Shown piece after piece: positions 33,253-45,820 of a stretch of 64,000 nucleotides of DNA (position 1 is its first letter; every line of letters begins with the position of its first letter). The DNA comes from Thermoleophilia bacterium (lineage in GTDB: Bacteria; Actinomycetota; Thermoleophilia; Gaiellales; Gaiellaceae), in the NCBI GenBank assembly GCA_023382435.1, contig JAHDVS010000007.1, forward strand, positions 1-64,000. The letters are read 5' to 3'. A program made the translations under genes and the position numbers. The notes under the pieces were generated by a model. The model did no database searches. It saw nothing but the letters and a program-made list of their open reading frames with translations, and was not told where the DNA came from.

Positions 33253-34170
33253 TCAGCTCGCGGTCGCGGCCCGCACGGCCCCGGCGATCGCCCGCACGTG
33301 GTCGGGCGACGACCCGCAACAGCCGCCGACGATCCGCGCGCCGGCTTCGACGAGGCGGATCGCGATCGCGCCCGTCTGCTCCGGCGCGAGCTCGTACTCG
33401 GGCGGATGCGTGAGCGGCTTCGGCAACCCCGCGTTCGGCTTCGCCCAGAGGGGCAGACCGGGCGCGAGCGAGGCGAGCTCGACGATCGCGGCCTCCGTCA
33501 CCTCCGGCGTGCTGCCGCAGTTGGCGCCAAGCGCGGCCACGCCGAGCGGCACGAAAGCGTCCACGAGCTCGGGTGCTCCGACCCCCATCATCGTTCGCGC
33601 GCCGCGCTTCCCGACCGAGTCGAAGCTGAAGCTGACGACGAGCGGCAGCCCGCTCGCCGAGCGGGCCCCCTCGACGGCGGCGAGCGCCTCGTCGAGCGCG
33701 AACTGGGTCTCGACGAGGAGCAGATCAACCCCGCCCTCCGCCAGGGCTGCGGCCTGCTCGGCGTAGGCCCACCTCGCCTCCTCCGGCTCGAGCGTGCCGA
33801 ACGGCAGCGAGGTCAGGAGCGCCCCGGTGGGCCCGATCGAGCCGGCAACGAACGCGCCGGTCGAGGCCACCGCCTCCCGCGCGAGCTCGGCTCCGCGACG
33901 ATTCAGCTCCGCGGCGCGATCAGGGTAGGCGGAATCGCGCAGCCTGACCGGGGTACCGCCGAACGTGTTCGTGAGGATCACCTCGGCCCCGGCCGCGACG
34001 AAGCGCCGATGCAGCTCGAGCACCGCATCCGGAGCGTCGATGATCAGCTCCTCGGGCGGCTGGCCCGCCTTCAGGCCGAGCTCCTGGAGGCCGGTGCCGA
34101 TGCCGCCGTCCGCGACGAGGATGCGGCCGCTCTCGAGCGCGTCCAGAAACGTCGCCGCCATGGCGCTCAC
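33253..34170 (-). CDS. Homocysteine S-methyltransferase
   Basis: A 305-residue TIM barrel. DGGIGTGLQELGL opens it; GANCGSTPEV and GGCCGSSPDHV carry the three zinc-binding cysteines that activate homocysteine. It corresponds to the N-terminal domain of MetH or to MmuM/BHMT. The start overlaps the stop of the threonine-synthase-like gene by four bases, so both are made under the SAM riboswitch upstream. That places it in methionine synthesis, with a methyl donor such as S-methylmethionine, betaine or a partner methyl-corrinoid. Confidence 0.88.
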   Translation of the reverse strand: MSAMAATFLDALESGRILVADGGIGTGLQELGLKAGQPPEELIIDAPDAVLELHRRFVAAGAEVILTNTFGGTPVRLRDSAYPDRAAELNRRGAELAREAVASTGAFVAGSIGPTGALLTSLPFGTLEPEEARWAYAEQAAALAEGGVDLLLVETQFALDEALAAVEGARSASGLPLVVSFSFDSVGKRGARTMMGVGAPELVDAFVPLGVAALGANCGSTPEVTEAAIVELASLAPGLPLWAKPNAGLPKPLTHPPEYELAPEQTGAIAIRLVEAGARIVGGCCGSSPDHVRAIAGAVRAATAS

Positions 34171-35384
34171 ACCGCCCCGAGCGAGCAGAGCAGGGCGTCC
34201 GCGTCCGCCTCGATCTCGACGGGGCGGAACAGGTCGGCGACCGGGTCTGGCGTCTTGAGGCCGTCGCCGGTGACGAGCAGGACGACGCGGTCTCGTTCCC
34301 CGACCTGGCCGCGGAGGATCGCCTCGCGCAGGCCACCGAGCGTGACCCCGGCCGCGGTCTCACCGAACACGCCTGCGGTCTCGGCCAGCAGCCGCATATT
34401 GGGTCCGATCTCGTCCTCGGCGACCGCGTGGATGTCGCCGCCGGTCGAGCGCGCCGTACCGATCGCCAGCTCCCCGTCCGCGGGGCTGCCGATCGCGAGG
34501 GAGCGGGCGAGCGAGCGCGGCCGCACCGGCGTGACGCGCCGCCCCTCGGCGAGAGCGGTCGCGACCGGGGCGCAGCCCTCCGCCTGCGCACCGATCAGGC
34601 GGGGCACGGGGCCGTCGACGAGGCCAAGACGGACCACCTCGCCGAAGCCCTGCGCGACCTTCGAGTAGAGAGCGCCGGACGCGATCGGAGCCACGACCAC
34701 GTCGGGCAGCTCCCAGCCGAGCTGCTCGGCGATCTCGTAGCCGAGCGTCTTCGAGCCCTCGGCGTAATAGGCGCGCAGGCCGACGTTGACGAAGCCCCAC
34801 GGCAGCTCGAACGAGAGCTCGACGGTGAGGCGGCTGCAGTCGTCGTACGTGCCCTGGACGGCGTAGACCGTCGCGCCGTAGACGGCGGTCGCGATCAGCT
34901 TCTCGGGCTCGAGATCGGCGGGGCAGAACACAGCGGCCTCGAGCCCCTCGGCGGCGGCACGCGCCGCCACCGCGTTGGCGAGGTTCCCGGTCGACGAGCA
35001 GGCCAGGGTGCCGAGGCCGAGCTCCCGCGCCTTCGCGCAGGCGACCGCGACGACGCGATCCTTGAACGAGTGCGTCGGATTGGCCGTGTCGAGCTTCAGG
35101 TGGAGCTCGCCGATGCCGAGCGCGGCGGCGAGCCGCGGCGCGGGCACGAGCGGGGTCAGACCGGGCGCGAGGCGCGGCTCAGCGGGCGCGGCGACCGGCA
35201 GGAGCGGCGCGTAGCGCCAGATCGAGGCCGGGCCGGCCTCGATCGACTCGCGGGTGACGGTCCGGCGCAGCTCGTCCCAGTCGTAGACCGGGTCGAGGGG
35301 GCCGAAGTCGCGGGGGCAGACAGCCGTCGGGCCGAGCTCGTGCTCGGCCTCGCAGACGCGACAGCGTAGGGCGCTAGCGGGCAT
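34167..35384 (-). CDS. Threonine synthase paralogue under SAM-riboswitch control
   Basis: A 405-residue fold-type II PLP enzyme. C8, C11 and C23 suggest an N-terminal zinc ribbon. NPTHSFKDRVVAVACAKA has the PLP lysine, CSSTGNLANAVAARAA the phosphate loop. It looks like long threonine synthase, but the window has another thrC beside thrB, and this one is controlled by SAM and paired with homocysteine methyltransferase. I infer it uses O-phosphohomoserine for a methionine-pathway reaction (gamma-replacement with sulfide or cysteine). A plain threonine synthase is the alternative. AAGGAG lies eight bases before the ATG. Confidence 0.8.
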   Translation of the reverse strand: MPASALRCRVCEAEHELGPTAVCPRDFGPLDPVYDWDELRRTVTRESIEAGPASIWRYAPLLPVAAPAEPRLAPGLTPLVPAPRLAAALGIGELHLKLDTANPTHSFKDRVVAVACAKARELGLGTLACSSTGNLANAVAARAAAEGLEAAVFCPADLEPEKLIATAVYGATVYAVQGTYDDCSRLTVELSFELPWGFVNVGLRAYYAEGSKTLGYEIAEQLGWELPDVVVAPIASGALYSKVAQGFGEVVRLGLVDGPVPRLIGAQAEGCAPVATALAEGRRVTPVRPRSLARSLAIGSPADGELAIGTARSTGGDIHAVAEDEIGPNMRLLAETAGVFGETAAGVTLGGLREAILRGQVGERDRVVLLVTGDGLKTPDPVADLFRPVEIEADADALLCSLGAV

Positions 35385-35400
35385 CCGATCACTCCTTTGT

Positions 35401-35515
35401 CTCGCTCGACATCCTTCCGAGCCATGTGGCCCGGCCGGGGTTGGCACCTTGCCGTCGGGGCAGGTTGCCGAGGCTTCACAGGGCCGGTTCCCTCAGCCTC
35501 TCTCGATGTGAGCGG
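35401..35515 (-). ncRNA. SAM-I (S-box) riboswitch
   Basis: Read on the minus strand, the conserved blocks come in order: ATCGAGAGAGGCTGAGGGA, CGGCCC, TGAAGCC, CGGCAACC, AAGGTGCCAA, and a closing GGATGTCGAG that pairs with the opening CTCACATC to form P1. This is the full SAM-I core, kink-turn and pseudoknot segments included. The ribosome site of the downstream gene follows P1 within about ten bases, and no terminator is seen between, so control of translation is likely. SAM binding would shut off the two methionine-related genes. Confidence 0.95.
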
Positions 35516-41563: not shown

Positions 41564-42316
41564 CTACGCGCCATGCTCGGCCGGCAGGCCAAGGCGCGAC
41601 CACTCGCTCCAGGAGCCGGCATAGAGCCGTGCGTCGGGACGCCCGGCTCCGGCAAGGCGAAGCAGGGTCACGCAGGCCGTCACACCAGAGCCACAATAGA
41701 CGGCGATCTCCTCGGCGTCGAGAACGGCCGCCGGGATCGGCGTCGCGTCCGCGTGGTGGAGGCTTCGCGCACCGGGCAGGTGGCCGGAGACCGGGTCGAG
41801 CGCGGCGATCGGGTCGCTCGAGGCCTCGCCCCGGTAGCGCTCCGGGGCGCGGGCGTCGAGTACGACGAGACGCGGGTCGCCGACGCGGTCGAGCAGCTCA
41901 TCGGCCTCGATCAGGTCGCCGGCGCGCTCGCGCGGCAGGAAGGCCGCCGGCTCGATCCGCTCCGGGCCGGGCCGCAGCGGGCCGCGCCAGGCGGCGACGC
42001 CGCCGTCGAGGGCGGCCACGTCGTCGTGGCCGAAATGCCGCAAGAGCCACCAGAGTCGGGCGGAACCGCCGGTCATTCCCTGGTCGTAGGCGATGACCAG
42101 GACGCCGGGGCCGATGCCGGCGCGCGACGCCGCGACCGCGAAGCGCTCGGCCGAGGGCAGCGGATGCCGCCCCCGGCCCGGGGCGAGCGAGAGGTCGGAG
42201 AGGTCGCGGTCGAGGTCGAGGAACGCCGCGCCCGGGATGTGGCCCTCGCGGTAGAAGCGCTCGCCGGCGGCGGGATCGAGCAGCTCGAAGCGGCAGTCGA
42301 CGAACCGGTACGTCAC
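41564..42316 (-). CDS. Two-domain rhodanese (sulfurtransferase)
   Basis: A 250-residue protein with two rhodanese modules. The first is inactive (VIAYDQGMTGGSARLWWLL, no cysteine). The second has VYCGSGVTACVTLL with the active-site cysteine. The CGSGVTA loop is of the thiosulfate/mercaptopyruvate sulfurtransferase type. The GTG start overlaps the thrB stop, so it is co-translated in the threonine operon. A sulfur-transfer role linked to homoserine-derived amino acids is an attractive guess. Confidence 0.85.
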   Translation of the reverse strand: MTYRFVDCRFELLDPAAGERFYREGHIPGAAFLDLDRDLSDLSLAPGRGRHPLPSAERFAVAASRAGIGPGVLVIAYDQGMTGGSARLWWLLRHFGHDDVAALDGGVAAWRGPLRPGPERIEPAAFLPRERAGDLIEADELLDRVGDPRLVVLDARAPERYRGEASSDPIAALDPVSGHLPGARSLHHADATPIPAAVLDAEEIAVYCGSGVTACVTLLRLAGAGRPDARLYAGSWSEWSRLGLPAEHGA

Positions 42317-43182
42317 GGGAGCGGCCCGGCGCCCATCGGCACCACGGCGAGCTGGAGCACGCGGGCGTCGGGGAAGCGCTCGGCGAGCTCGCCGGCGCAC
42401 GCGGTCCCTTCGCCCTCGCGCGCCCAGACGATCACGGTCGGGCCGGAGCCGGAGATCGTGGCCGCCACGGCGCCGCCGGGAAGCTGCTCGCGCAGCGCCC
42501 GGAACGGCGGCGATAGCGGGCCGCGATAGGGCTCGTGCAGCCGGTCGTCGAACGCCTCGCGCAGGAGCTCGACCGAGCCGGTGACCAGCCCCCCCCCGCG
42601 CGGGGCGCCCCCCCCCACCGTGTCGGCGGCGTCGTCTGGCGGAACGCGCCCGGCCCGGCGGGCGGGGGCCGCGGGGGTGCCGCCCCGGGCGCCCGGGACG
42701 ACCGCGATCGGGACGAGCGGCAGCTCCTGGGTGATGCGGGCGACGCGCTGACGCCCGTTCGAGCACCACGTGAGGCAGACGCCGCCGGCGAGCGCCGGCG
42801 CCAGGTTGTCGGCGTGGGGCTCGAGCGCGAGCCCGAGCTCGAGCAGCGACTCGACCTCCGGCCAGCGACCGAGCGCGAGCGAGGCGGCGACGAGTCCGAG
42901 CGCGATCGTCGAGGCGCTCGAGCCCAGGCCGCGGGCGAGAGGAATCCGATTCGTGAACACGAACCGCTTGCCTTCGACCGGGGCCACGCAGCCGAAGGCG
43001 CGCAGACCCAGATGCTCGGGCCCTTCGGAGATCTCGCCCGCACCCTCGCCGCGCACCTCGACGCCGTCGCCCTCGGAGACCTCGAGCTCGTTCCAGAGGT
43101 CGAGCGCCGCACCGGCGCAGTCGAAACCGGAGCCGAGGTTCGCGGTCGTGGCCGGCGCCCGGACGCGGACGGGCAGGCTCAC
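42313..43182 (-). CDS. thrB: Homoserine kinase
   Basis: A 289-residue GHMP kinase. APATTANLGSGFDCAGAAL opens it, IPLARGLGSSASTIALGL is the ATP loop, and FDDRLHEPYRG and ATISGSGPTVIVWA the C-terminal motifs. It makes O-phosphohomoserine, used by thrC and perhaps by the riboswitch-controlled paralogue. Residues about 165-200 are an odd Gly/Ala/Pro/Arg-rich stretch lacking the usual LP-x-VP-x-x-D helix sequence, and the DNA there has two runs of nine C. Either it is diverged or the read contains homopolymer errors. Confidence 0.88.
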   Translation of the reverse strand: MSLPVRVRAPATTANLGSGFDCAGAALDLWNELEVSEGDGVEVRGEGAGEISEGPEHLGLRAFGCVAPVEGKRFVFTNRIPLARGLGSSASTIALGLVAASLALGRWPEVESLLELGLALEPHADNLAPALAGGVCLTWCSNGRQRVARITQELPLVPIAVVPGARGGTPAAPARRAGRVPPDDAADTVGGGAPRGGGLVTGSVELLREAFDDRLHEPYRGPLSPPFRALREQLPGGAVAATISGSGPTVIVWAREGEGTACAGELAERFPDARVLQLAVVPMGAGPLP

Positions 43183-44518: not shown

Positions 44519-45820
44519 TCAGCCGGCGGCCGCGACGCCCCGGTCGGAGATGACCGCGAGTCGGGTCGGGGTTCCGTGCGTCTCGGGCAGGAGCGCGATG
44601 TCGCCGAGCGCCGCCTCGACTGCACCGGCCGGAGCCTCGTGGGTGACGACGTGCAGCGACGCGCCGCCCGCGAGCCCGTGCTGGATCAGCCGCGCCACGG
44701 AGACACCGTGCGCGGCGAGCCGCTCCGCCACGTGAGCGAGCACCCCGGCGCGGTCGTCGACCTCGATCCGCAGGTAGTAGGGCGACTCGAGCTCCCCCGG
44801 CGGCAGCTTCCGGAGCGTGCGCCAGACCGCGTCGTTCTGGAGGAAGCCGGTGCCCTGCGTGCCGACGATCGAGACCATGTCGGCCACGACCGCCGACGCC
44901 GTCTCGATGCCCCCGGCGCCCGGCCCCTCCAGCATGATCTCGCGGATCGAGTCACCCTGGAGCATGACCGCGTTGAACGCCCCCTCGACTCCGGCAAGCG
45001 GATGGTGGCGATCGACGAGCGCCGGCGCAACCCGGGCGTCGACGGCGCCGCCGGCGAGCGTCGCCTGGCCGACGAGCTTCACGGCCATCCCGAGCTCCCG
45101 CGCCGCCACGATGTGTCCGGGAACGATTCGCTCGATCCCCTCGAAATCCACGTCCGCGAGCGTGACGCGCGACCCGAACGCGATCGTGGCGAGGATCGCC
45201 ATCTTCGCGGCCGCGTCCGCACCCGACACGTCCTCCGTCGGGTCGGCCTCGGCGAAGCCCAGCCGCTGCGCCTCGCTCAGCGCGCCCTCGTAGGTGTCGC
45301 CGGCCTCCATCCGCGTCAGGATGTAGTTGGTCGTCCCGTTGACGATCCCGAGCACCCGGTGCACGCTCGAGACGACGAGCGCCTCACGCAGCACCTTGAT
45401 CACCGGAATCGCCGCACACACGGACGCCTCGAAGCGAAGCTGGACGCCCGCCGCGGAAGCGGCGGGGAACAGCTCGTCGGAGCGCTGGGCGATCAGCTGC
45501 TTGTTCGCGGTCACGACCGGCTTGCCGGCCCGGAGCAGATCGAGGACGTGGCCGCGCGCCGGCTCGATCCCGCCCATCACCTCGGCGACGAGCGCGATCG
45601 ACGGATCGTCGCGGACGTCCGCGAAGTCGGTGGTCAGGACGCCCGGGGCAGGCGCGAAACCACGCTCCTTGCGCGCGTCGCGTACGAGCGCCCTGACGAC
45701 ACGCAGGCGGTGCCCGGTCGCGCGCTCGATGTCGTCCGCGTTCTCCGACAGGAGCCGGTCGACCGCGGCGCCGACCGTGCCATACCCGAGCAGCGCGACG
45801 GGGACGTCAACGCTCGCCAT
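44519..45820 (-). CDS. hom: Homoserine dehydrogenase with ACT domain
   Basis: A 433-residue enzyme. [15 protein letters not shown] binds NAD(P), [10 protein letters not shown] and [14 protein letters not shown] are catalytic segments, and [21 protein letters not shown] is the family signature. An ACT domain from about residue 350 ([22 protein letters not shown]) should mediate threonine feedback. Its start lies within the last 14 bases of ilvC, so it is translated with the branched-chain genes. Confidence 0.94.

Follow-up and report, generated by a model that had tools for sequence, protein, structure and literature searches.

A probable SAM-repressed metM operon without a neighbouring metO gene in a Thermoleophilia bacterium

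In a Thermoleophilia bacterium of the family Gaiellaceae (GenBank assembly GCA_023382435.1), a complete SAM-I riboswitch stands before a gene for a threonine synthase-like protein of 405 residues, and behind this gene follows a coupled gene for a homocysteine methyltransferase. Within the stretch of DNA analysed, positions 1 to 64,000 of contig JAHDVS010000007.1 (hereafter the window), we read this locus, with a probability of about 0.85, as a SAM-repressed methionine operon, metM-hmt, in which MetM would make homocysteine and the methyltransferase would make methionine from it. The RNA, the layout of the operon, the orthologous relation to MetM of Streptomyces and the changes at the active site are seen in the sequences themselves, and the reaction of the window MetM would be that of MetM as reported by others. 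The coordinates of the features are collected in Table 1.

Table 1. Features of the metM-hmt locus, the threonine genes and two carrier fusions of the same genome (G000)
Feature	Position	Strand	Basis
SAM-I (S-box) riboswitch aptamer, complete	35405..35512	-	RF00162, model 1-108 of 108
Linker from aptamer to start codon, 20 nt, contains AAAGGAG	35385..35404	-	sequence
metM-like gene, 405 aa, PLP fold-type II, threonine synthase superfamily	34167..35384	-	PALP/thrC models
Homocysteine S-methyltransferase, 305 aa	33253..34170	-	PF02574, E 2.7e-67, 228.1 bits (gathering score 22)
Homoserine kinase thrB	42313..43182	-	TIGR00191, 133.3 bits, below the cut-off of 168.25; GHMP kinase domains
Canonical threonine synthase thrC, 326 aa	43190..44170	-	TIGR00260, 237.8 bits, over the cut-off of 167.1; groups with solved ThrC
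hom	44519-45820		profile matches
Carrier-CysM fusion, 409 aa, PAMAGG inside, JAB peptidase gene next	L126:4991-6220 (G000 contig 34)		PF02597
MoaD-MoaE fusion protein, 213 aa	L125:4990-5631 (G000 contig 17)		PF02597

SAM-I riboswitch and predicted control

In a covariance-model search against RF00162, the leader of the metM-like gene scored 82 bits (gathering score 44.4, E 8.4e-18) over 108 of the 108 model positions, 20 nt upstream of the start codon, which bears out the original prediction of a full SAM-I riboswitch before a ThrC-like gene. The match is the only one to SAM-I in the genome. Considering that only 20 nt separate the aptamer from the gene, a transcription terminator between them was ruled out, and control is predicted to be most likely translational. 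AAAGGAG stands upstream of the ATG and, in a fold of the window leader, the aptamer flanks CGCUC and GAGCG can extend P1 to a few nt from the ribosome-binding site. The folded window leader has this lengthened P1, but the minimum-energy folds of several relatives' leaders do not contain the aptamer; as such, single-sequence folds are no proof about the switch. At low SAM the riboswitch would keep the ribosome-binding site free for translation of the two proteins of the operon, a direction of control and a coupling that we infer.

The riboswitch was present at all 33 MetM loci that were checked. Seventeen of these belong to the order of the window (17/17, the window counted), and the 16 further loci were taken from Streptomyces and two other families (7/7) and from elsewhere in the class and phylum (9/9).

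Methyltransferase gene

The metM-like gene and the methyltransferase gene overlap by 4 nt, with the stop and start codons joined in GTGA, so that the coupling of the two genes stood as predicted. We predict that the 305-residue product methylates homocysteine to methionine. Its best NCBIfam match was PRK07534 (247.7 bits, below the cut-off of 338), and no NCBIfam equivalog cut-off was passed. Cys218, Cys284 and Cys285 are present, which we take to be the three zinc cysteines of homocysteine S-methyltransferases. No other S-methyl_trans match was found in the genome, and neither a MetE domain nor MetH was detected there; since the assembly is 96% complete, this absence is not proof. Many relatives carry a longer, MetH-sized S-methyl_trans frame, and a methyltransferase gene adjoined metM at none of the 16 other MetM loci of the order.

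In relatives, SAM-I riboswitches are often found in front of other methyltransferase genes, and homocysteine methyltransferase genes were seen there with a SAM-I riboswitch of their own directly on the 5' side (G029:C3:228901, G042:C81:4049, G020:C151:1041, G005:C152:3080, G027:C81:23060 and G035:C77:46959). Several riboswitch-preceded methyltransferase frames in relatives are 600-690 residues long and may be methyltransferase-MTHFR fusions.

Relation of the 405-residue protein to ThrC and MetM

The superfamily of the 405-residue protein is plain from its matches to solved structures, the best of which is a ThrC (E 2.7e-52). Like the solved ThrC proteins (1uim, 2zsj, 6cgq and 2d1f), it belongs to the PLP superfamily and keeps the PLP lysine (K108) and the STGN loop, together with Lys116, and its score against the thrC model TIGR00260 was 219.8 bits, over the cut-off of 167.1. 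It differs from them in an extra N-terminal zinc-ribbon-like part with C8, C11, C23 and D26. Asp26 (35305-35308 region) replaces the fourth cysteine of the ribbon, a position that is Cys in 48 of 50 MetM-group rows and Asp in the window protein alone. The zinc-ribbon ThrC-like gene of the original prediction thus stands as to the likeness to ThrC and the N-terminal part, but not as to the fourth cysteine. Cysteate synthase (TIGR03844), another member of the superfamily, matches the N-terminal part too, although the window protein reached only 54 bits against a cut-off of 324.9.

A tree built from 75 rows placed the window protein and Streptomyces MetM in one group apart from true ThrC, with support of 98/98. 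This side of the tree holds 53 rows, namely 50 MetM rows, among them four from Streptomyces, and three diverged second copies. The ThrC side holds 21 rows, including the four solved ThrC proteins and the window's own ThrC (100/99), and one long and unsure row (L028) was placed beside the MetM side. The end branch of the window MetM is short, at 0.16.

Eight sites separate the two groups, T88L, N157R, R160Y, Q164S, A194K, A240S, P288T and D323T, written from ThrC to MetM in 1uim numbering. For the residue counts, we left out the three second copies and kept 9 canonical ThrC rows apart from 13 other ThrC-like rows. The complete signature was found in 50 of 50 MetM-group rows, including the window protein, and other residues were found in all nine canonical rows. 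Arg160 is kept in 9/9 canonical and 13/13 ThrC-like rows and Asn157 in 9/9 and 12/13, and both are replaced in 50/50 MetM rows. Based on its clade and these eight active-site residues, the window protein belongs to the MetM group and very probably is a MetM orthologue. By the same clade and conserved residues it falls outside ThrC, from which it differs at T88, N157, R160, Q164, P288 and D323, although the TIGR00260 cut-off is passed; judged from these sequence features, it would not be the ordinary threonine synthase of the cell.

The window protein shares 49.5-52.3% identity with each of the 80 named Streptomyces-type loci. These were kept from a search with one protein of Streptomyces, a genus of the phylum sample described next; 79 carry the title Streptomyces and the remaining one is 'Actinobacteria bacterium OV320', and S. 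albulus is not among them. A metM orthologue of at least 55% identity occurs in 17 of the 61 nearest genomes, the window's own (G000) counted. In a sample of 296 genomes of the phylum, 113 matched with an E-value of 1e-60 or lower; five of them, with a best match of only 34-40% identity, were dropped, and the other 108 were counted as MetM.

The three second copies (L057, L058 and L059, from G032, G028 and G005) are long-branched within the MetM clade. None of the three has a SAM-I riboswitch, and they are altered at Lys116 (to P or D), Asn154 (to G or E), 157 (to H) and 160 (to A); from these changes, they probably use another substrate. In two relatives (L044:9224-11327 and L047:9680-10966, the latter by look only), metM is followed by genes of the chorismate mutase and isopropylmalate dehydrogenase types.

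Proposed reaction and the threonine branch

MetM of Streptomyces albulus is reported to make homocysteine directly from O-phosphohomoserine (Hasebe et al. 2024, AEM 90:e01247-24, as cited in excerpts of PMC12172450), and its gene has an upstream SAM riboswitch (PMC12172450, excerpts). In the same excerpts, a Microcystis gene neighbour annotated as a sulfur carrier protein resembles S. albulus metO, and the cyanobacterial (Microcystis) relative, at 51.6% to S. albulus MetM, is described as having threonine synthase/deaminase activity, without a clear product of homocysteine type. In S. lividans, RF00162 precedes SLIV_16930-SLIV_16925, a pair labelled threonine biosynthesis (PMC8079986). The original prediction that the paralogue converts O-phosphohomoserine to homocysteine is probably right, by orthology to MetM as excerpted in PMC12172450, but it is not new. 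Its further claim, that such a route was not expected in bacteria, does not hold because MetM is already in print (Hasebe et al. 2024, cited in the same excerpts), and the route was accordingly dismissed as a novelty of the window.

The distance from the metM-like gene to the canonical threonine genes thrC, thrB and hom is about 8 kb and, as had been stated, the true thrC adjoins thrB; this thrC served as the paralogue for comparison and stands outside the switch. ThrB would supply O-phosphohomoserine, a substrate common to MetM and ThrC, and MetM would take it from the threonine pathway. With PLP on Lys108, the phosphate would be removed and sulfur added at the gamma carbon to give homocysteine, which the coupled methyltransferase would then convert to methionine. 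The sulfur donor is the least certain part of this explanation.

The protein might instead be an additional threonine synthase, or one that is also a deaminase, controlled by SAM so that the branches to threonine and to methionine stay in balance. Such an enzyme would suit the score over the cut-off of the thrC equivalog model, the retained PLP lysine and Lys116, and the threonine synthase and deaminase activity reported for the Microcystis relative (PMC12172450, excerpts). We consider it improbable, since the genome already has a canonical thrC, the gene forms a coupled pair with one for a homocysteine methyltransferase, and R160 and N157 are replaced in all 50 MetM rows. Moreover, a SAM off-switch would raise threonine synthesis when methionine is short and so drain the common precursor.

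Absence of metO and candidate sulfur carriers

We searched the loci around metM with an HMM built from six carrier sequences. A MetO-type gene was found downstream of metM, at most 1.5 kb away, in all 80 named Streptomyces-type loci, and beside metM in 32 of 34 other loci outside the order (25/26 in L099-L124, 6/7 in L128-L134, and L143), most of which were the best-scoring matches of the phylum search and not a random draw. These proteins have PAVAGG at the C-terminus, followed in a few cases by one or two residues. The same search detected no metO in the window, and none next to metM at 10 other loci of its family or at 6 loci of two sister families (0/16 in the order). Since metO is missing here and at all 16 other loci examined in the order, the published MetM/MetO pair is not reproduced, and the donor would be either free sulfide or a CysO-type carrier. 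The thiocarboxylate of MetO is reportedly the sulfur donor of that pair. Among the papers listed in our literature searches, none was on MetM without MetO.

PF02597 gave three matches in the window's genome, a MoaD-MoaE fusion, an in-frame carrier-CysM fusion and ThiS, and among these matches from a 96% complete assembly there was no stand-alone carrier of the MetO type. The MoaD-MoaE fusion is a further example, in the same genome, of a carrier that is held within a longer chain. Of 15 further MetM genomes from the order that were surveyed, 14 have a CysO-type carrier beside or fused to CysM (G038 was left out, and G013 gave none in the stretch examined). The fusion recurs in G004, G021, G033 and G043 and in G006, which has no MetM; in other genomes of the order the genes are separate, and some of the separate carriers have one to five residues after GG. 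A JAB gene follows in 14 of 15 carrier-bearing genomes, G000 counted. In G019, a stand-alone carrier with PAVAGG plus two residues lies on a stretch away from metM, so metO may be unlinked there.

We tentatively suggest, as a possibility that we regard as doubtful, that MetM of this order dropped MetO and draws its sulfur from the CysO-type carrier, and that the SAM riboswitch would control a module of two genes, metM and one for a stand-alone methyltransferase, for the two final steps to methionine in a cell without MetH or MetE. The carrier, which is encoded with CysM and here fused to it, could be freed by the adjoining JAB peptidase. Since it would sit in one chain with CysM until cut at GG by that peptidase, a single carrier would in this case feed both cysteine and homocysteine synthesis.

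Parallel metX-metY route

The genome search proposed with the original prediction was for metA/metX, metB and metY. On contig 32, metX (PRK00175, 500 bits over a cut-off of 331) adjoins metY (TIGR01326, 659 over 495). Another gene of the metY type lies on contig 23 (612 over 495) and one of the cystathionine gamma-synthase type on contig 8 (554 over 513); a related PLP enzyme on contig 3 was below all cut-offs shown. MetA was not found in the genome. A complete metX/metY or metB pathway had been named, next to threonine as the only product, as what would speak against the prediction, and metX with metY is that half of it. Contamination was rejected as the source of contig 32, whose GC content is 0.716 and whose tetranucleotide correlation with the window (r 0.997) is as close as that between the window's own pieces.

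Given metX, two metY-type genes and a gene of the cystathionine gamma-synthase type, MetM need not be the main route to homocysteine; metX-metY does not exclude a parallel MetM route. No SAM-I match was found on the metYX stretch of contig 32, so that the riboswitch-controlled supply of homocysteine would be MetM. In G029, two SAM-I matches lie near metX. MetM and MetX co-occur in 23 of the 296 phylum genomes against 38 expected (Fisher p 1.4e-4, a value that ignores relatedness), and in 3 of the 61 nearest genomes, where the avoidance is not significant (p 0.35); a simple mutual exclusion was rejected on the latter result. One genome assembled as a single contig, G018, carries MetM and gave no full-length match to metX.

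With metX and metY adjacent on contig 32, metO gone and the zinc-ribbon cysteine turned into Asp26 in the window protein only, one might ask whether metX-metY took over homocysteine synthesis and left MetM as a remnant with little or no role. We give this little credence, because the frame is full-length with the eight signature residues intact, the riboswitch scores highly and the end branch is only 0.16; it is also the metM gene, and not metYX, that has the SAM-I riboswitch and with it the controlled supply.

It is very improbable that O-phosphohomoserine and cysteine are joined to cystathionine for cleavage by another enzyme, as by a fold-type II counterpart of plant cystathionine gamma-synthase: this was the original prediction's own alternative, and contigs 8 and 3 hold cystathionine-type PLP enzyme candidates, but MetM as reported yields homocysteine directly (PMC12172450, excerpts) and the usual pairing with a sulfur-carrier gene (80/80 and 32/34 loci) speaks for a donor at the sulfide level in this family.

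Discussion

The metM-hmt operon, as we read it, shares with S. albulus MetM/MetO a ThrC-like enzyme of one clade, an upstream SAM riboswitch and active-site residues as in the Streptomyces rows examined, whereas it has a methyltransferase gene instead of an adjoining metO, in a genome that also has metX-metY (compared with the excerpts of PMC12172450). What is new here is a lineage that has MetM without a neighbouring carrier gene and, in the window's genome, the pairing of MetM with the only methionine-synthase-type gene found.

Two known systems resemble the proposed use of carrier-bound sulfur. In the CysO-CysM-Mec+ system of Mycobacterium, a fold-type II enzyme is fed by a carrier ending in GG, and cysteine is made from O-phosphoserine. 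A GG carrier, CysM and a JAB peptidase are all present in the window's genome, with the differences that the carrier is fused to CysM and that it lies on a contig other than that of metM. Thiocarboxylate-dependent homocysteine synthesis, with sulfur from a carrier protein, has been described in Wolinella (Krishnamoorthy and Begley 2011, cited in excerpts of PMC5764234). The transfer of sulfur from a carrier protein into homocysteine is what that system and the present proposal have in common. They differ in the enzyme and substrate: that of Wolinella is said to be MetY, an unrelated fold-type I enzyme that acts on O-acetylhomoserine.

The loss of metO beside metM across one order raises the question of what feeds sulfur to MetM. 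Since standard models name MetM genes threonine synthase, the methionine pathways of Actinomycetota, where MetM was counted in 108 of 296 sampled genomes, are easily misread. Taken together, the riboswitch, the residue signature and the clade provide a simple rule by which this misnaming of MetM can be corrected.
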